Assembly (NCBI GenBank): GCA_946478895.1
Contig: CAMLDY010000078.1
Coordinates: 1 to 11,747 of the forward strand
Direction: 5' to 3'
DNA: 11,747 bases
Source: an uncultured Gemmatimonadota bacterium
GTDB lineage: Bacteria; Gemmatimonadota; Gemmatimonadetes; Gemmatimonadales; Gemmatimonadaceae
The translations under genes were made by a program, and so were the position numbers. Of the stretch, positions 2,671-11,744 are shown one piece after another (positions within the stretch are counted from its first letter, which is position 1; each line of letters starts with the position of its first letter). The notes beneath the pieces are model-generated. The model did no database searches, had not been told where the DNA came from, and saw only the letters and a program-made list of their open reading frames with translations.

Positions 2671-3350
2671 TGCCAGTCCGGCTCGTCGGTGAGCGTATCG
2701 ACATGGACCCGCGCCAGCGACGCTTTGCCGGAGAAGCGTTCCCAGGTGCCGCTGGTGTTGCGGTGTGCGACAGCGATCTCGAAGCTGTCCGGCGCGAACC
2801 AGCGCGCGTGGTTGAGGTCTTCGTCGCAATCACAGCCGCCGCCGCCCGGGCCTCTCGCGACGATCCGTCCAGACTTTATGTCGCGGACGACCGCGTAGGT
2901 GCCGGGATTCGCGGGAGTGCTGTCTTCGGCGACGTAGGCGAGGAAGCGGCCGTCGGGCGAAACGAGCACGTCCTGATACGACGGCCAGACATCGTCAGGG
3001 ATCGGCGTCGTCTCGACCCGGTGTTGGCCGAGCCGAAGCCGGAAGATCTGCCGCTGCGGTGTCGAGGAATCTTCGGAGGCTTGCACGAGCCCGATCACCA
3101 GGGTGTCTCCGACGACGATCGGCGCCGGCGGGATCACGTTGCGGATGGTGTCCGATCCAGCCGGAGACACCACCTCTATGCGATAGACGATGCCCGTGTC
3201 TTCCATCGGCGCCCACGACGAAGTGTAGGTCGAGTCGATGACCCGAATGTCGGTCGCGGATTCATTTTCGTCGTGGCTGCACGCGCCGCTCGCCGCCACC
3301 AGGGTGGCGCCGATCACGATGAGGGTGAGGCGTGTCGGCAAAGCAATCAT
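2667..3350 (-). CDS. Putative exported lipoprotein with a TolB-like propeller strand
   Basis: This 227-residue protein has a basic N-terminus and a hydrophobic stretch (8-20) ending in SGAC (21-24). Cys24 is a plausible lipidation site, although Ser at -3 makes the lipobox imperfect. Predicted beta-rich sequence follows. QDVLVSPDGRFLAYVAEDS (126-144) resembles a WD40-like/TolB propeller blade, but only one or two blades' worth of sequence is present. A striking GGGG-CDCDED patch (169-178) precedes HARWFAPDSFEIAVAH. The ATG at 3350 overlaps the TGA of the sortilin-like gene as ATGA, with no Shine-Dalgarno, so translation should depend on re-initiation. Its own TGA overlaps the TTG of the DinB-like gene. 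I do not recognise a specific function; a periplasmic or outer-membrane-attached role alongside the sortilin-like protein is inferred from the operon. Confidence 0.8.
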   Translation of the reverse strand: MIALPTRLTLIVIGATLVAASGACSHDENESATDIRVIDSTYTSSWAPMEDTGIVYRIEVVSPAGSDTIRNVIPPAPIVVGDTLVIGLVQASEDSSTPQRQIFRLRLGQHRVETTPIPDDVWPSYQDVLVSPDGRFLAYVAEDSTPANPGTYAVVRDIKSGRIVARGPGGGGCDCDEDLNHARWFAPDSFEIAVAHRNTSGTWERFSGKASLARVHVDTLTDEPDWH

Positions 3351-6300
3351 CGATCGTCGGCGTCGTCTGCCGGGGCGACAGCGCTGGCCGAACCCGTCGT
3401 CGTCGGCTCTGTCGCACTTGGCACGATTGGCGGCAGTCCCGCTTCCTTGAGCGTCGCGTTCAACAACGGAAGCGTGACCAGCAGCGGCCCACGCATCGCC
3501 TGCAGCTGGCGATCGAGCTGGGCGGAGAGATCATTGAAGACAGTATAGGACTGGCTCGTCGGTTTCGCATCGGTACCGCCGACCACGCCGGCGAGGGCGG
3601 CGATCTTGTTGTTCAACCTGATCGGATAATTGAGCGGATCCTGTCCCGAACGGTTCTTGACCTGGTAGATCTCGCTTTCTACCGAGTCGAGTCGAGCGGT
3701 CAGATTTGCCGCCAGCTGCGTGAACGAGGCTGCCTTGGGGCCAGTGATCCTCTTGCTGCGATCCGCGAGCTGTGCCTTGACGTTTCGAATCGTCTTCACC
3801 GCGTCGTTGGCCTCGCTGGTCTTGTCGCGGACGCGGATCAGGAAATCGAACTGCTCCTTGAGATCGGCGTCGGTCGCAGCGCTGCGCGGATCCTTGACCA
3901 CGGTGAAGGGCTGAGTGAATCGCTGCCCGCCGACATTGAGCCGAACGCTGTAGTTACCCGGCAACGCGATCGGACCTGCGACGCTGCCCGCCCACATGAT
4001 CATGTTCTGAAACACCGATGCGTCCGGATACCTCAGGTTCCAGGCGAAGCGGTTGAGCCCGGCCTTGTTGGGCACTCGCGGCGGTGGCGGACGGCGCACG
4101 GGGCCGTCTTCTCCCGCCGTTTCCTCACCGCGCGCTTCGCTGTGCGTCGTCGTGTCGGGTGGCAGACCCGCGCGCCGCAGGCTGTCATTGCGCGCGGCAC
4201 GAATGCTGTCGGCGCGCACCGAATCGGCGGCGACGGTCGGATCCTGCTGGCTGGTGAAGCTGCGAATGACCTTTCCCTGCGGGTCGAGAAAATCCATCGT
4301 CACTATCTGTCCCGGCTGCGCGAGCCAGTAGTAGATCACCGCGCCCGACGGGGGATTCGCGCCGGTAGGGTGATCGCCGGCGGCGCCGTTACCGCCGCCA
4401 CCGCCGAAGCTCGCACGATAGACCTTGCGTGGCTTGAAGAGGTGCGCGCGCTCCCGCGGCACCGCCGGCGACAGCTGTCGCAGCGATGACAGGTCATCGA
4501 GAATCCAGAACGACCGGCCATGCGTCGCGGCGATCAGGTCGCCCTCCTTGATCGCGAGATCGTGGACGGGGACGATCGGAAGATTCCGGCGCAGTGACTG
4601 CCAGCTCGCGCCGTCGTCGAACGAGACCCATACTCCGCGCTCGGTACCCGCGTACAGCAGGCCCGCGCGCTCCGGGTCTTCGCGCACTACGCGCGTGAAC
4701 TCGGTTGCGGGGATGCCATTGGTGATCAGAGTCCACGTCGCGCCGTAATCGCTGGTCTTGTACAGGTACGGCTTCATGTCGTCGAGCTGGTAGCGATTTG
4801 CGGCTAGATACGCGGTGCCGGTGGCAAAGTTCGATGCGTCGATCATCGAGATCCGGGTCCATTCCGGCAATCCGCGCGGGGTGACGTTCTTCCAGGTCCT
4901 GCCACCGTCGCGGGTGATGTGCACGAGTCCGTCGTCGGAACCGGCCCAGATCACGCCCGCCGTGCGTGGCGATTCAGCGATGGTGAAAACCGTGGCGTAG
5001 TACTCGACCGATGTCTGATCCTTGGTGATCGGGCCACCCGATGCGCCAAGGGTACGGGGGTCGTGGCGGGTGAGGTCGGGGCTGATGACTTTGTAGCTCT
5101 GACCCTCGTCGTCGGTCTGGAAGATCACACTGCTGCCGACGTACATCCGCGACGGATTGTGCGGCGAGATCACAATCGGAAACGTCCACTGGAATCGGTA
5201 CTTCGCGTCGGCGGCGTCGTGACCCATCGGATTGTTTGGCCACGGGTTCACGTCGCGCTCGAATCCCGTCTTGGTGTCCTTGCGGGTCAGGAGTCCGCCG
5301 TACGAGCCAGCGAACACGACGTCCGGAGTGTCGGGTCTCACGGCGATGTAGCCGCTCTCTCCGCCCCCGACATCGTACCAATCTTCGATATCAATGCCGC
5401 CGCTCTTCCGGCTGGGGCCGCACAGCGTGGAGTTATCCTGCTGCGCGCCGCACACCCGATACGGGAAATGCGTCGTCGTCACGACGTGGTAGAACTGCGC
5501 GGTCGCCTGGTCCTGTTCGGTCCAGGACTTCCCGCCGTTGAACGACACGTTGGCCCCGCCGTCGTTTGATTCGATCATCCGCTGCGGATCGTTCGGCGCG
5601 ATCCAGAGGTCGTGGTTGTCGCCGTGCGGAACCTGGATGCTCTTGAACGTCTTGCCGTCGTCCGTCGAACGGTACATGCCGGTGTTCAACACGTAGATCG
5701 AATGTTCGTCCCTGGGATCGGCGAAGATCCGCGTGTAGTACCACGCGCGCTGCCGCAGCCGGCGATCGCTATTGGTTCGCGTCCACGTCGCGCCGCCATC
5801 GGTCGAGCGGAACACTCCGCCCGAGTCGGCTTCGATGATCGCCCAAATGTGACTCGAGTTGCTGGGCGAGACCGCGAGGCCGATGTTGCCGATGACTCCC
5901 TGCGGGAGACCCGGATTCCGCGTCAGCTCGGTCCAGTGCTCACCCCCATCGGTCGATTTGAAGATGCCACTCCCGGCGCCGCCGGAGACGAGCTGCCAGG
6001 GAGTGCGCCACGCCTGCCAGAATGCCGCGTAGATGATCTCGGGGTTGTTCGGGTCGAGCACCAGGTCGGTGATGCCGGTCGAATCGTTCCGATAAAGAAT
6101 CCTGCGCCATGTCTTCCCGCCGTCAGTCGTCTTGAAAACTCCGCGCTCGCTGTTCGGTCCGAACACGTGACCCTGGGCGCCGACGTAAACGATGTCGGGA
6201 TTGGAAGGATGGACGCGCACCCGTGAGATCTGTCGGGTGTCAGCGAGGCCGACGGATGCCCAGGTCTTGCCGCCGTCACCGCTGCGGAACACGCCATCGC

Positions 6301-6709
6301 CGTGCGACACGTTGCCGCGAATCGGGTACTCGCCGGTGCCGACGTACACAATGTCGGGGTTCGATTCGCTGATCCCGATCGCGCCGATCGTACCGCCGAA
6401 ATATTTGTCGGTGACCGGAGCCCAGGTGACCCCGCCGTCGGTGGTCTTGAAAACGCCGCCGCCGGTGGTCCCGAAGTAATACTCGTAGGGTCGTTTGCTA
6501 GACCCTGCAACAGCGACCGATCGGCCGCCACGGAAGGGGCCGATCTCGCGCCAGCGCAGCGCGGCAAACACGCTCGTGTCGTATGGAGCGGCGGCGGTGG
6601 GCAGACTCCCACCTACGCGGCCGGGAAGTGGAATACGCTGCGCGGTTGAAGGGTGTGCGCAGACGAGCAGCGCACCGGCGGTAAGCGCGACTGCGTGGGT
6701 AAAGCGCAT
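3347..6709 (-). CDS. Large exported sortilin/VPS10-like Asp-box (BNR) repeat protein
   Basis: From the ATG at 6709 this is 1120 residues. A further in-frame TTG lies at 6763, but it would put non-signal sequence in front of a clean signal peptide (1-23, ending STA-Q) and lies upstream of the predicted -10 box. At least eleven Asp-box motifs of the S/T-x-DGG-x-T-W type (TTDGGVTW, SGDGGKTW, STDGGATW, SFDDGASW and others) run from about residue 85 to 700, forming one or two beta-propellers. A Gly-rich linker (~770) leads to a beta-sandwich-like region. A charged low-complexity insert (~820-880) is followed by NRFAWNLRYPDA and PGNYSVRL, then a helical region (~935-990). Such proteins are often labelled glycosyl hydrolase, but Asp boxes are structural and no catalytic residues can be assigned. 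It is exported and heads the coupled operon with the lipoprotein and DinB-like genes. GGAG (6727-6724) lies 14 bp before the ATG, unusually far. Confidence 0.93.
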   Translation of the reverse strand: MRFTHAVALTAGALLVCAHPSTAQRIPLPGRVGGSLPTAAAPYDTSVFAALRWREIGPFRGGRSVAVAGSSKRPYEYYFGTTGGGVFKTTDGGVTWAPVTDKYFGGTIGAIGISESNPDIVYVGTGEYPIRGNVSHGDGVFRSGDGGKTWASVGLADTRQISRVRVHPSNPDIVYVGAQGHVFGPNSERGVFKTTDGGKTWRRILYRNDSTGITDLVLDPNNPEIIYAAFWQAWRTPWQLVSGGAGSGIFKSTDGGEHWTELTRNPGLPQGVIGNIGLAVSPSNSSHIWAIIEADSGGVFRSTDGGATWTRTNSDRRLRQRAWYYTRIFADPRDEHSIYVLNTGMYRSTDDGKTFKSIQVPHGDNHDLWIAPNDPQRMIESNDGGANVSFNGGKSWTEQDQATAQFYHVVTTTHFPYRVCGAQQDNSTLCGPSRKSGGIDIEDWYDVGGGESGYIAVRPDTPDVVFAGSYGGLLTRKDTKTGFERDVNPWPNNPMGHDAADAKYRFQWTFPIVISPHNPSRMYVGSSVIFQTDDEGQSYKVISPDLTRHDPRTLGASGGPITKDQTSVEYYATVFTIAESPRTAGVIWAGSDDGLVHITRDGGRTWKNVTPRGLPEWTRISMIDASNFATGTAYLAANRYQLDDMKPYLYKTSDYGATWTLITNGIPATEFTRVVREDPERAGLLYAGTERGVWVSFDDGASWQSLRRNLPIVPVHDLAIKEGDLIAATHGRSFWILDDLSSLRQLSPAVPRERAHLFKPRKVYRASFGGGGGNGAAGDHPTGANPPSGAVIYYWLAQPGQIVTMDFLDPQGKVIRSFTSQQDPTVAADSVRADSIRAARNDSLRRAGLPPDTTTHSEARGEETAGEDGPVRRPPPPRVPNKAGLNRFAWNLRYPDASVFQNMIMWAGSVAGPIALPGNYSVRLNVGGQRFTQPFTVVKDPRSAATDADLKEQFDFLIRVRDKTSEANDAVKTIRNVKAQLADRSKRITGPKAASFTQLAANLTARLDSVESEIYQVKNRSGQDPLNYPIRLNNKIAALAGVVGGTDAKPTSQSYTVFNDLSAQLDRQLQAMRGPLLVTLPLLNATLKEAGLPPIVPSATEPTTTGSASAVAPADDADDR

Positions 6710-6753
6710 TTGCACTGAGGAGTCTCCGGACGGGTGGGTGGGTACGCGGATAC

Positions 6754-6783
6754 TATGTAGCAATCCCGCTGCTCGCTCGGCAA
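6754..6783 (-). promoter_or_regulatory. Putative promoter of the sortilin-like operon
   Basis: Reading the minus strand, TTGCCG (6783-6778) and TACATA (6759-6754) are separated by 18 bp. The predicted start lies about 35-40 bases upstream of the ATG at 6709. The -10-like box falls downstream of the alternative TTG at 6763, which favours the ATG start. Element A begins about 47 bp upstream of this -35 box. The match is by eye only. Confidence 0.35.
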
Positions 6784-6829
6784 GTAGCCGCCGCGTGTGC
6801 GGCGCGCCCCGCGCCGTTCAGGCATCAAT

Positions 6830-6899
6830 CCAACTGCGAAAAAAGTAAGGTGGAGGGTGCGAGGTGATAGGAAGGAGGGAAAGAGGGGTGCGGGCGTTT
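6830..6899 (+). repeat. Element A left inverted arm
   Basis: This 70-bp arm is purine-rich on the + strand. It begins CCAACTGCGAAAA, passes through AAGGTGGAGGGTGCGAGG and ends AGGGGTGCGGGCGTTT. It pairs with 7317-7386 and matches both arms of element B in the core. It contains the AAGGAGG string (6872-6878), a perfect anti-SD complement, and several GG/GGG runs. Confidence 0.9.
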
Positions 6900-6957
6900 T
6901 GGTCCGTCCGCTTGGAAACGATGTGACAGAAGCCGACCGTACGCGGCACCGTCCGGG

Positions 6958-7317
6958 ATGAGCGATTTCCGGAAGCTTCTCGTCTGGCGGAAGGCGCACG
7001 TTCTCGCGCTCCGGGTGGATCGGGTGGCGGGCACACTCCAGCGGCCCACGGACGCTTCGCTCAAAAACCAGATGACGAGGGCAGCGATGTCGATTCCCAC
7101 TAACATTGTCGAAGGAAGCAGTCAGGAAAGTAGAAAAGACTTCAAACGCTTCCTCCGCTACGCCTCAAACTCCGCCACGGAGCTGGAATATCACCTGCTC
7201 CTCGCGCGCGACAAGGGCGCCATCACCACGGGCGATTACGCGAACCTGTCGGCTCGGACGGTGGAAGTGCGCAAGATGCTGATCGGCCTGATGAAGAGGG
7301 TGGAGCAGACACTATGA
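6958..7317 (+). CDS. Four-helix-bundle protein (23S rRNA intervening-sequence-protein family)
   Basis: This 119-residue basic protein has the family's hallmarks: an N-terminal FRKLLVWRKAHVLAL (4-18), the central QMTRAAMSIPTNIVEGSSQ (38-56), DFKRFLRYASNSATELEYHLLLARD (61-85), and a C-terminal helix ending in LMKRVEQTL. Length and motifs are those of the IVP/four-helix-bundle family (TIGR02436 type). Its founding members are encoded in intervening sequences inserted in 23S rRNA genes, and its relatives include the Avd accessory protein of diversity-generating retroelements. These proteins assemble into oligomeric rings and are thought to bind nucleic acid; the cellular role is unsettled. Here the ORF is intergenic and enclosed by 70-bp inverted arms, with its TGA (7315-7317) touching the right arm. 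No good Shine-Dalgarno precedes the ATG. It is the only candidate protein for maintaining or moving the repeat unit. Confidence 0.93.
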   Translation: MSDFRKLLVWRKAHVLALRVDRVAGTLQRPTDASLKNQMTRAAMSIPTNIVEGSSQESRKDFKRFLRYASNSATELEYHLLLARDKGAITTGDYANLSARTVEVRKMLIGLMKRVEQTL

Positions 7318-7386
7318 AACGCCCGCACCCCTCCTCGCCTCCTCCCTATCACCTCGCACCCTCCACCATACTCAGTTCGCCCTTGG
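7317..7386 (-). repeat. Element A right inverted arm
   Basis: This is the inverted partner of 6830-6899, pyrimidine-rich on the + strand. Differences from the left arm cluster at arm positions 5-6, 12-19, 43-53, while the 20-42 and 54-70 blocks are intact. Similarity to the right end of element B continues a few bases beyond the arm (TTGGTTTT then GC). It ends 7 bp from the stop codon of the minus-strand gene at 7394. Confidence 0.9.
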
Positions 7387-7393
7387 TTTTTGC

Positions 7394-7666
7394 TCAGCGC
7401 AGGAATCTCTCCGCCAGCTGCGCCAGCCGCTCGTCGCCTTCCTGCTCGGCGCGCGCACGGATGTTCTCGACGTAAGGGCGCAGCTTCTTTTCGCCCCAGT
7501 AGTAACCCGTTGCGCTTTCGGCACTGCCGGTGTCGCCGGACCGCGCCGCGTCGAGCAGCGCTTCGGCAGCCGCTTCGTCGTACCCCGGATCGCTGCGAGA
7601 GGGAAGAGAATATCTCCTGCCCGGATCGCCCCACCCGCTGTCTTCCTTTACGAACGCGCGTGACAT
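7394..7666 (-). CDS. Small conserved-type hypothetical protein
   Basis: This is a 90-residue soluble protein with no signal peptide or membrane segment. The N-terminal third is basic and Pro/Gly-containing (MSRAFVKED, GRRYSLPSRSDPGYDEAAAEALLDAAR). An Asp/Ala-rich stretch follows, then the distinctive GYYWGEKKLRPYVENIRARAEQEGDERLAQLAERFLR (54-90). I recall short proteins of this layout (MSRAFVKE start, GY-WGE core, AERFLR end) as uncharacterised in several phyla, but I cannot assign a function. GAGGG (7678-7674) is followed by 7 bases and then the ATG, so the start is well supported. It diverges from the 7765 gene across a 98-bp gap that must hold both promoters, though I see no convincing boxes. 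Element A begins immediately beyond its stop. Confidence 0.8.
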   Translation of the reverse strand: MSRAFVKEDSGWGDPGRRYSLPSRSDPGYDEAAAEALLDAARSGDTGSAESATGYYWGEKKLRPYVENIRARAEQEGDERLAQLAERFLR

Positions 7667-8109: not shown

Positions 8110-9042
8110 TTGGCAATCGCGGTGAATAACGCCACGCGACGCAGCATTCGCTGGGCGCAGGCGGGACTGGTGGTCAACGCGGTGCTCGTCCTGGTGAAGT
8201 TCGTCGCGGGAATCGTCGGCCACGCCAACGCGCTCGTGGCCGATGCGGTCGAATCGTCGGCGGACATCTTTTCGTCGATGATCGTCTGGATGGGACTGAG
8301 CATTGCCGCCAAGCCCGCCGACGAAGACCATCCCTACGGGCACGGGAAAGCGGAGCCGCTCGCCGCGGCGGTGGTGTCGCTGATGCTGCTCGGAGCGGCG
8401 GCGGGGATATCGATCCTCGCGATTCGCGAGATCCTGCACCCACATCATTTGCCGGCGTCGTTCACGCTCTTCGTCGCCGCCGGTGTGATCATGGTGAAGG
8501 AAGTGCTCTACCAGCGTGTATCCAGAGTCGGCCGCGATGTCGGAAGCACCGCAATCTCAGCCGATGCCTGGCACCATCGTGCCGACGCAGCGAGCTCGCT
8601 GGCTGCGTTCATCGGAATCAGCATTGCACTCATTGGCGGACCGGGTTGGGAAGCGGCAGACGACTGGGCGGCGCTCGTCGCGGCGGTGCTGGTCGCGGTC
8701 AACGGTGTACGCACGCTGCGGCCGGCGATTTCGGGCTTGATGGATGAAGCTCCGGACAGCGCCGTAAACGCGCGCGCCCTCGAAGCGGCCAACACCATCG
8801 ATGGCGTGCGGCGCGTCGAGACTCTGAATGTTCGCCGGTCAGGACTTGGGTTCTACGTCGATCTACACGTCCAGGCTGACCCGGGGATCTCGCTCGAGGA
8901 GGCGCATGAGATCGCCGCGAAGGTGAAGTACGCGATTCTCGAGGCAATCCCGAGCGTCATCGCCGTCCTCGTGCACATGGAACCCTATCGCGGTCCTGCC
9001 GCCGTGCCAGCCGATACGGTTCTCAGCCTGCCGCCGGCCTGA
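8110..9042 (+). CDS. Cation diffusion facilitator (CDF) family metal transporter
   Basis: This 310-residue inner-membrane metal/proton antiporter has six predicted TM helices and a cytoplasmic C-terminal domain. TM2 holds ALVADAVESSADIFSS, giving E48-x3-D52 at the transport site. TM5 holds SADAWHHRADAASS, giving H155-x3-D159. The DEDHPYGHGKAEPLA loop (71-85) after TM2 is diagnostic of the family. The tail (about 210-295) matches the CDF ferredoxin-like dimerisation domain, with DGVRRVETLNVRRSG and LEEAHEIAAKVKYAILEAIPSV. CDF proteins export divalent cations such as Zn, Fe, Mn or Co. The Glu in the TM2 motif differs from the Asp or His of well-studied Zn members, so specificity is open. The start is uncertain: TTG at 8110, directly after the upstream TAA, or GTG at 8122. 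Neither has a clear Shine-Dalgarno, so coupling to the upstream gene is likely. Confidence 0.95.
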   Translation: MAIAVNNATRRSIRWAQAGLVVNAVLVLVKFVAGIVGHANALVADAVESSADIFSSMIVWMGLSIAAKPADEDHPYGHGKAEPLAAAVVSLMLLGAAAGISILAIREILHPHHLPASFTLFVAAGVIMVKEVLYQRVSRVGRDVGSTAISADAWHHRADAASSLAAFIGISIALIGGPGWEAADDWAALVAAVLVAVNGVRTLRPAISGLMDEAPDSAVNARALEAANTIDGVRRVETLNVRRSGLGFYVDLHVQADPGISLEEAHEIAAKVKYAILEAIPSVIAVLVHMEPYRGPAAVPADTVLSLPPA

Positions 9043-9084
9043 GCTCGTCGGTAATGCGTGCGCGCATCCCTTACGCCCATCCGT

Positions 9085-9130
9085 AATCCGCGCTCCGCAC
9101 TGGGACTCAGCCGGAATCCGCGCTCCGCAC
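9085..9130. repeat. 16-bp direct repeat at the 3' end of moaC
   Basis: AATCCGCGCTCCGCAC occurs at 9085-9100 and again at 9115-9130, a 30-bp period. The right copy encodes the last residues of MoaC (VRSAD on the minus strand); the left copy lies just past the stop codon. It looks like a local tandem duplication or a deletion scar. Confidence 0.85.
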
Positions 9131-9586
9131 CGGCAGTCCGCCGCTCTTGGCGGTCACACGCAGATTCGAGATTTCCATCTTGCGGTCGAGCGATTTCGCC
9201 ATGTCGTAGATGGTGAGCAGCGCGACCGACGCCGCCGTCAGCGCCTCCATCTCCACGCCCGTCCGGCTGCGCGACGCTGCCCACGCACTGACGCGAACGC
9301 CGGGTATAGCGGGGTCGATCTCGAAATCGACACCGATGTCGTCGAGAGCGATCGGATGGCAAAGCGGAATCAGCTCTGGGGTCTTTTTCGCGGCCATGAT
9401 GCCCGCGATTCGCGCGGTCGCTAGTGCGTCCCCCTTGACGAGCGCGTTGTTCTCGATCGCGCCCAGCGCGTCTGCATTCATGGTGATCGTTCCCTCGGCC
9501 GATGCACGTCGCGCGGTCTCCGGCTTGCGCCCGACATCCACCATTCGCGCGCGGCCTTCGGCGTCGATGTGGCTGAGGTCGCTCAC
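9107..9586 (-). CDS. moaC: Cyclic pyranopterin monophosphate synthase MoaC
   Basis: MoaC converts the 3',8-cyclo-GTP product of MoaA to cyclic pyranopterin monophosphate, the second step of molybdenum cofactor synthesis, in the cytosol. The 159 residues align with the E. coli numbering. MVDVGRKPETARRA (15-28) is the N-terminal motif, and the catalytic Lys51, His77 (in LIPLCHP), Glu112 and Glu114 (TGVEMEALTA), Asp128 and Lys131 (TIYDMAK) are all present. The start is GTG (9586-9584), overlapping the TGA of holB as GTGA, so translation should be coupled. No other moco gene lies in the window. The last few codons are part of a 16-bp direct repeat. Confidence 0.97.
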   Translation of the reverse strand: MSDLSHIDAEGRARMVDVGRKPETARRASAEGTITMNADALGAIENNALVKGDALATARIAGIMAAKKTPELIPLCHPIALDDIGVDFEIDPAIPGVRVSAWAASRSRTGVEMEALTAASVALLTIYDMAKSLDRKMEISNLRVTAKSGGLPVRSADSG

Positions 9587-11482: not shown

Positions 11483-11513
11483 CCGGACTGCGAGTACACA
11501 ACCTGCCAGTAGA

Positions 11514-11583
11514 CCACCTGCGAGAAGAGTAAGGTGGAGGGTGCTAGGTAATAGGGAGGAGGGAAGGAGGGGTGCTGGTGCTC
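11514..11583 (+). repeat. Element B left inverted arm
   Basis: This arm begins CCACCTGCGAGAA and continues through AAGGTGGAGGGTGCTAGG and GGGAGGAGGGAAGGAGGGG. It aligns to the element A left arm over the full 70 bp without gaps. Its purine bias lies on the + strand, as in A. Confidence 0.85.
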
Positions 11584-11661
11584 TGGTGCCTGCCGCTGCG
11601 TCTGCGTGGCGTGGCCCTCCCCGTTTGCCGGTGTATAGAGATCTGTGCGGCGGAACGACCC

Positions 11662-11731
11662 CCAACGCCCGTACCCCTCGCACGTCCTCCCAATCGCCTC
11701 GCACCCTCCACCTTGCTATTTTCGCGGTTGG
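11662..11731 (-). repeat. Element B right inverted arm
   Basis: Read on the minus strand, this arm begins CCAACCGCGAAAA and passes through AAGGTGGAGGGTGCGAGG. It carries about one base deleted relative to the element A arms in the GGAGG-rich part, then ends with TACGGGCGTT. It is the most diverged of the four arms internally but keeps the outer end well. Confidence 0.8.
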
Positions 11732-11744
11732 TTTTCGCGGTTGG
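11719..11744. repeat. 13-bp tandem duplication at the end of element B
   Basis: TTTTCGCGGTTGG occurs twice head to tail (11719-11731 and 11732-11744). The first copy is the outer tip of the element B right arm. A third copy may begin at 11745 (TTT), but the window ends there. Confidence 0.85.

Follow-up and report, generated by a model that had tools for sequence, protein, structure and literature searches.

Inverted-repeat pairs dispersed between genes are familiar from the REPIN/RAYT system, in which a gene-bearing unit with matching ends encodes a Y1 transposase. Another kind of insertion, the intervening sequences (IVSs) of bacterial 23S ribosomal RNA (rRNA), carries, in its ORF-bearing form, a gene of the IVP family as a loop between complementary ends. 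As stated in passages of two papers (PMC4990558, PMC11270868), rRNA IVSs are thought to have moved horizontally, the origins discussed for them include transposon remnants and mobile elements, and the IVS of Coxiella carries tandem heptamers immediately before its open reading frame (ORF). A passage from 2024 terms the IVP domain functionally uncharacterized (PMC11270868). We describe here a unit of similar design at positions 6827-7389 of an 11,747-nt stretch of DNA (the window) from an uncultured Gemmatimonadota bacterium (GenBank assembly GCA_946478895.1, contig CAMLDY010000078.1), together with its relatives. It is probably a free-living mobile relative of rRNA IVSs in which IVP acts as an arm-recognising factor, and that it is a mobile element we consider very likely. 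In contrast to rRNA IVSs, the units described here are located not in rRNA but between or beside protein genes.

The window unit is made up as follows:

6827-7389: IVP unit of 563 bp, flanked by a BNR-repeat gene and a short ORF (7394-7666)
6827..6899, + strand: 5' arm of the unit, an inverted repeat of 73 nt, 85% complementary to the 3' arm
6832..6838, + strand: outer-end motif AACTGCG, of a type common to many units
6847-6895, + strand: heptad-like stretch in the 5' arm (AAGGTGG AGGGTGC GAGGTGA TAGGAAG GAGGGAA AGAGGGG TGCGGGC), suggestive only (lag-7 p 0.06)
6958..7317, + strand: IVP (four-helix-bundle) gene, 119 aa, assigned from PF05635, AlphaFold2 and PDB sequence relatives
7317..7389, + strand: 3' arm of the unit, an inverted repeat with 6827-6899
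7373..7377, + strand: CAGTT, the mirrored outer-end motif, read from sequence; short, and weak taken alone

The two arms are separated by 417 nt and their complementarity is far beyond chance: in a gapped alignment they score 46, with 62 of 73 positions identical, while the flanks of IVP loci, shuffled once each, score at most 13.5. An earlier note, made from the window sequence alone, had counted 60 matches in 70 positions, in line with this repeat, and had expected a transcript to fold into one long stem with the ORF as its loop. The predicted RNA fold of 6827-7389 has this form, with the arms paired as one long stem around the ORF (-265.5 kcal/mol, z -7.5; equalled by 0 of 100 shuffles). 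The note's assignment of the gene as IVP-type with a four-helix bundle is borne out by the match of the ORF to PF05635 (23S_rRNA_IVP; 105.8 bits, cut-off 33.8), the protein family of rRNA IVSs, and by an AlphaFold2 model with four helices (mean pLDDT 95.7). The ORF ends, with its stop codon, where the 3' arm begins (7317). Sequence relatives in the PDB are 2gsc and 2rld; 2gsc is IVP XCC0516 from X. campestris, whose solved structure is a five-membered ring.

As modelled, the window IVP has a fold close to that of Avd, the accessory protein of diversity-generating retroelements (DGRs), which part of one paper states to be required for DGR retrohoming (PMC12875486). Unlike a DGR, the window has no reverse transcriptase among its 8 ORFs scanned with Pfam (the genomes elsewhere were not searched for one), and no template or variable repeats were seen. 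The same scan found no transposase among the 8 ORFs, in agreement with the earlier note. Its placement of the cassette outside rRNA also stands: no Rfam family exceeded threshold anywhere in the window, and no rRNA match appeared there or in 40 loci scanned around IVP genes.

The relatives compared come from 395 Gemmatimonadota genomes searched with the window IVP, of which 182 gave matches at E <= 1e-8, often several each. The sample comprised 30 loci and 40 regions among the best matches, plus a few from other searches, and leans towards close relatives of the window IVP because it was drawn from best matches; once duplicates and two loci at contig ends had been dropped, 64 Gemmatimonadota loci remained. 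Arms were scored by the best inverted repeat joining the 400 bases before the gene to the 450 bases after it. The score was at least 20 in 55 of the 64 loci and at least 16 in 57, against 1 and 2, respectively, of 198 control ORFs picked mechanically from loci of 4 kb or more. Among 36 distinct loci from other phyla (Chloroflexi, Balneola/Gracilimonas, Deltaproteobacteria as titled, and cyanobacterial plasmids), 21 scored at least 16 and 13 at least 20. An IVP gene within complementary arms is therefore a general arrangement. The sole control ORF with strong flanks (L175:3231-4034, score 38) is near the Pseudanabaena galeata IVP gene, and its inverted flanks may be one more array of this type. 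At L046:1724-1820 a gene for small signal recognition particle RNA directly adjoins an IVP unit. Two IVP matches (G001:C58:28682 and G176:C159:16815) fall within open frames some 600 aa long, which may be fusions or just long open frames in GC-rich DNA.

The window unit was absent from every orthologous site at which both flanks were resolved. From a set of 30 loci, 19 were compared at this site; 13 had both flanks on one locus, and in 13 of 13 the unit is missing, 4-263 bp replacing 591-1208 bp of window sequence (in G063, 10 bp against 610 in the window). At some of these empty sites the small neighbouring ORF is also gone or diverged. Units of another genome, G012, vary likewise. The full form of a 193-bp unit without a gene is absent from all 7 aligned congeneric loci; G381 retains only a mini-hairpin, between flanks 97% and 95% identical, and G293 a short trace. 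Another gene-less G012 unit lies in a stretch that we take to be coding and His-rich; it is absent from 8 of 9 genomes showing both flanks (five aligned), the ninth (G333) matching on one side only. A full G012 IVP unit is also present in G396, leaves a 5'-arm remnant in G381 and is absent from G397, G351 and G095, while G138 has, as read by eye, a different hairpin at the site. At one further, intergenic site (L182; L250 in G138, L251 in G351), also read by eye, each of three congeneric genomes has a hairpin of its own, one of them with IVP; the two without an IVP gene have CGCTGAC-type and GGGATGC-type repeats.

In G293 the full unit is inverted relative to its flank, at a contig end: the IVP gene (L225:1-620) is turned with respect to the right flank as compared with G012, either by a flip between the arms or as an assembly artefact. 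The contig with the left flank (L238) ends in a 14-nt tandem array (AACTGAACGGCGGG).

The clearest alleles occur in cyanobacterial plasmids, taken from records of named strains that are for the most part given as complete. In Nostoc, a gene cluster compared in 8 of 11 matching plasmid records has two junctions at which the neighbouring genes are just a few bases apart. At the first (D/E), an IVP unit whose heptads are CAGGAGT/CAGAAGT is present in ATCC 53789 pNsp_a, C052 pC052_D and N6 pNPM1, and the junction is empty in C052 pC052_A and pC052_B, C057 p057_H, and ATCC 53789 pNsp_b and pNsp_c. At the second, pNsp_c has another IVP unit, its heptads of GGGAAAA type, and the remaining five plasmids compared are empty. 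In N6 pNPM1 the IVP gene of the D/E junction is itself split by a gene-less hairpin of 182 bp that shares the heptads of the unit (L311:1523-1704). Megablast found parts of this hairpin resembled at 43 places in 32 plasmid records; among the matches listed (15 of the 32 records), only its own record gives coverage of 80% or more. In pNsp_b, two adjacent short annotations reading 'four helix bundle' (L314:327-1005; 204 and 294 nt) are perhaps pieces of one interrupted IVP gene. Elsewhere, a unit between nrdB and nrdA is present in Nostoc edaphicum and absent from Calothrix NIES-4105, and a unit between cas6 and cas4 is present in Pseudanabaena galeata and absent from Pseudanabaena strain ABRG5-3. 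IVP genes lie between cas genes (cas6/cas4, cas10/cmr3) in three of the cyanobacterial plasmid loci (L175, L179, L180).

Dispersed copies without the gene form a second line of evidence. The related copy that the earlier note placed near the cassette is such a unit:

11513-11734: second unit of 222 bp without an IVP gene, downstream of the DJ-1 gene, its arms related to those of the first unit
11513..11578, + strand: 5' arm of the second, ORF-less unit, from window repeats (lag-7 p 0.002)
11685..11734, + strand: 3' arm of the same unit, from window repeats (lag-7 p 0.12)

Its arms, with 124 nt and no IVP-family ORF between them, match those of the first unit at 85% (over 74 nt) and 77% (over 65 nt) identity, and a short terminal motif recurs outside its right arm (AACCGCGAAAA on the other strand). 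Elsewhere, 5 of 9 genomes have matches to the arm of a G012 unit; G351 has 34 such places, most of them in inverted pairs that extend over about 235 bp and lack IVP, beside one IVP unit. In the family of this arm (CCGGCCGGGGGC), whose arms were paired by script only up to 900 bp apart, we extracted 26 pairs: 18 without a gene and 155-266 bp long (12 from G351), seven of 468-599 bp with IVP sequence, and a doubtful one of 405 bp with no IVP match (L191). Gene-bearing and gene-less copies thus coexist in this family, which is the pattern of the window. The earlier note's proposal that the cassette is mobile is upheld by these copies and by the empty sites; the arm type, moreover, occurs twice in the window.

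Such gene-less paired repeats are what the units share with the REPIN/RAYT system. They differ from it in that the gene encodes a four-helix bundle and not a Y1 transposase, and in that the arms are longer and mostly based on heptads. Of the 8 genomes of the traced arm family, whose completeness is uncertain, 7 gave no Y1 transposase, and G293 has one match over the cut-off. No transposase-bearing unit with the traced CCGGCCGGGGGC arm was seen among the pairs covered by the script. The gene-less derivatives, as well as arms that are mostly heptad arrays differing by family, also set these units apart from rRNA IVSs.

Arm sequences vary strongly from locus to locus, with matching bases recurring every 7 positions. 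In Gemmatimonadota arms the identity at lag 7 is 0.460 against 0.277 when shuffled (z about 25), and 0.400 at lag 14, with no 7-position signal in the IVP gene or the outer flank of these loci; in arms from other phyla (24 arms, 21 distinct) it is 0.759 against 0.332 (z about 25). Taken singly, 38 of 54 arms reach p < 0.05 at lag 7, as against 1 to 5 at six other lags. The arms thus tend to be degenerate 7-bp repeats. Their outer ends often have a motif in common: among 55 units the left ends show AACTG 33 times and CAGTT twice (21 units carry AACTG) and the right ends CAGTT 37 times against 5 for the other orientation (20 units). In the controls, gene starts gave counts of 5 and 1, and 7 of 52 far-upstream stretches had the motif. 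G exceeds C in the 5' arm of 42 of 55 Gemmatimonadota units and 17 of 21 in other phyla.

Heptanucleotide repeats are reported, in sections of two papers, from Xanthomonas (GGGAATC), Nostoc and Beggiatoaceae (TAACTGA) (PMC4692102, PMC4679880), and are intergenic like the units here; two Xanthomonas genomes have 70 and 75 heptamer cases paired as inverted repeats (a section of PMC4692102). The main texts of both papers contain neither 'S23' nor 'four helix' and so draw no link to IVP in those words. X. campestris has both the 70 inverted GGGAATC pairs and the solved IVP XCC0516.

We propose that the element consists of two inverted arms, heptad-built in most relatives, around one IVP gene. The IVP gene is under purifying selection in free-standing copies, and arm similarity correlates with IVP protein identity in a Mantel test. 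The Avd-like IVP probably recognises the arms; it would bind their heptad array, as RNA or as single-stranded DNA, and bring the element to an enzyme encoded elsewhere, either the host replication or repair machinery or a reverse transcriptase acting in trans. Gene-less units would be non-autonomous derivatives moved by the IVP of the same arm type. We consider the case for IVP as the specific mobility factor of the element to be evenly balanced, and that its five-fold ring reads successive heptads is a conjecture. In a transcript the arms could pair and become a substrate for RNase III, as happens in rRNA IVSs, so that an insertion between operon genes would do little harm; this account of tolerance, which leans on the predicted fold, we would as soon accept as reject.

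Several observations weigh against this proposal. Strong arms are lacking at 9 of the 64 Gemmatimonadota IVP loci, and 15 of the 36 loci outside this phylum score below 16. The 7-bp period of the window arms themselves is weak (lag-7 p 0.06 and 0.09, suggestive). No convincing target-site duplication was found at the allele junctions compared, and the 36-bp cas6/cas4 gap of ABRG5-3 is not bare, holding a short direct array of AATTACG-type heptads (L312:1645-1682). The ratios behind purifying selection are rough because dS (synonymous divergence) exceeds 1 in the measured pairs, and host relatedness may contribute part of the Mantel signal. We know of no catalytic motif in IVP, which leaves the strand-transfer step unexplained. 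In the CCGGCCGGGGGC family, the likeness of arms within a unit (0.659) does not clearly exceed that between units (0.635; 382 of 5000 permutations do at least as well, 26 units), and joint changes number 66 against a mean of 61 (sd 9) with shuffled partners. Maintenance of detailed pairing thus lacks support in this family, by a test that is blunt because some arms are anchored one or more heptads apart, and the single long stem of the earlier note does not emerge as what is kept. These arms look more like the left and right ends of a transposon sharing a motif than like stem halves selected for base pairing.

That likeness also suits the best of the alternatives, in which the arms are ends of miniature inverted-repeat transposable elements moved in trans by an unrelated transposase, with IVP as a passenger that helps otherwise, for instance by protecting or processing RNA. 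Gene-less units outnumber IVP units in the CCGGCCGGGGGC family (18 against 7 of 26 pairs, one doubtful), its ends appear left- and right-specific, and a protein with no known catalytic motif fits the part of passenger. Furthermore, Y1 was the only transposase family searched, and since pairing stopped at 900 bp a longer unit bearing a transposase would be missed. We nevertheless consider this explanation unlikely: save for the doubtful 405-bp pair, CCGGCCGGGGGC units of gene-sized length carry IVP, Y1 was not found in 7 of the 8 genomes (of uncertain completeness), and a passenger need not keep the correlation between arms and protein or the association across phyla.

Far less probable is an immobile hairpin, a fixed RNA or terminator structure that regulates its neighbours with IVP as its RNA-binding regulator. 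The strong predicted stem and the location of several units between genes or at gene ends would agree with it, but it is contradicted by presence and absence at resolved orthologous sites, by the differing hairpins of congeneric genomes at the L182 site and by the nested insertion in N6 pNPM1, and arm co-variation is not clear. That the unit is a relocated, decaying copy of an rRNA IVS, with which it shares protein family and architecture (part of PMC4990558), is scarcely credible in view of the absence of rRNA sequence from the window and the 40 loci around IVP genes and of purifying selection on free-standing copies.

Further features of the window include:

3347-6763, minus strand: large BNR-repeat gene
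7394-7666, minus strand: short ORF
8110-9042: cation-efflux gene
Other genes: moaC-like, DNA polymerase III delta'-like and DJ-1/PfpI

The gap from the efflux gene to the moaC-like gene holds a 30-bp tandem duplication (9078-9137, 83% identical), which extends into the listed end of the moaC-like ORF.

Returning to the mobile IVP element, its heptad-built arms, its gene-less derivatives as a class and its spread over phyla go beyond the earlier note. Among the literature matches listed (titles and abstract starts, with few subscription papers), IVP genes are not joined to heptad arms and no free-standing IVP elements appear. IVP genes within cas loci are on record, 18 of them in part of one paper (PMC3936711) and others in a figure legend of another (PMC10910872). 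The absence of the L175 unit from ABRG5-3 means that some of the published CRISPR association may reflect insertion, and some cas-locus IVP genes may be hitch-hiking insertions, as in Pseudanabaena. Tentatively, and with rather more doubt than conviction, we suggest a multi-phylum class of mobile elements whose sole protein is a non-enzymatic IVP ring that would read a heptad code, one heptad per subunit, and recruit copying or repair enzymes; rRNA IVSs, the heptad hairpins of Xanthomonas and Nostoc and the cas-operon IVP genes would be its members or products.

The IVP family is named after insertions in rRNA, yet it also occurs in free-standing hairpins that are polymorphic among relatives. 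The units tie together intergenic heptad repeats reported without a cause, the IVP genes of cas loci and the origin of the Avd fold. With a full and a stripped-down copy in one window, the spread of such insertions becomes testable, and polymorphic free-living copies in cultured Nostoc, accompanied by gene-less derivatives, make the function of IVP testable as well.
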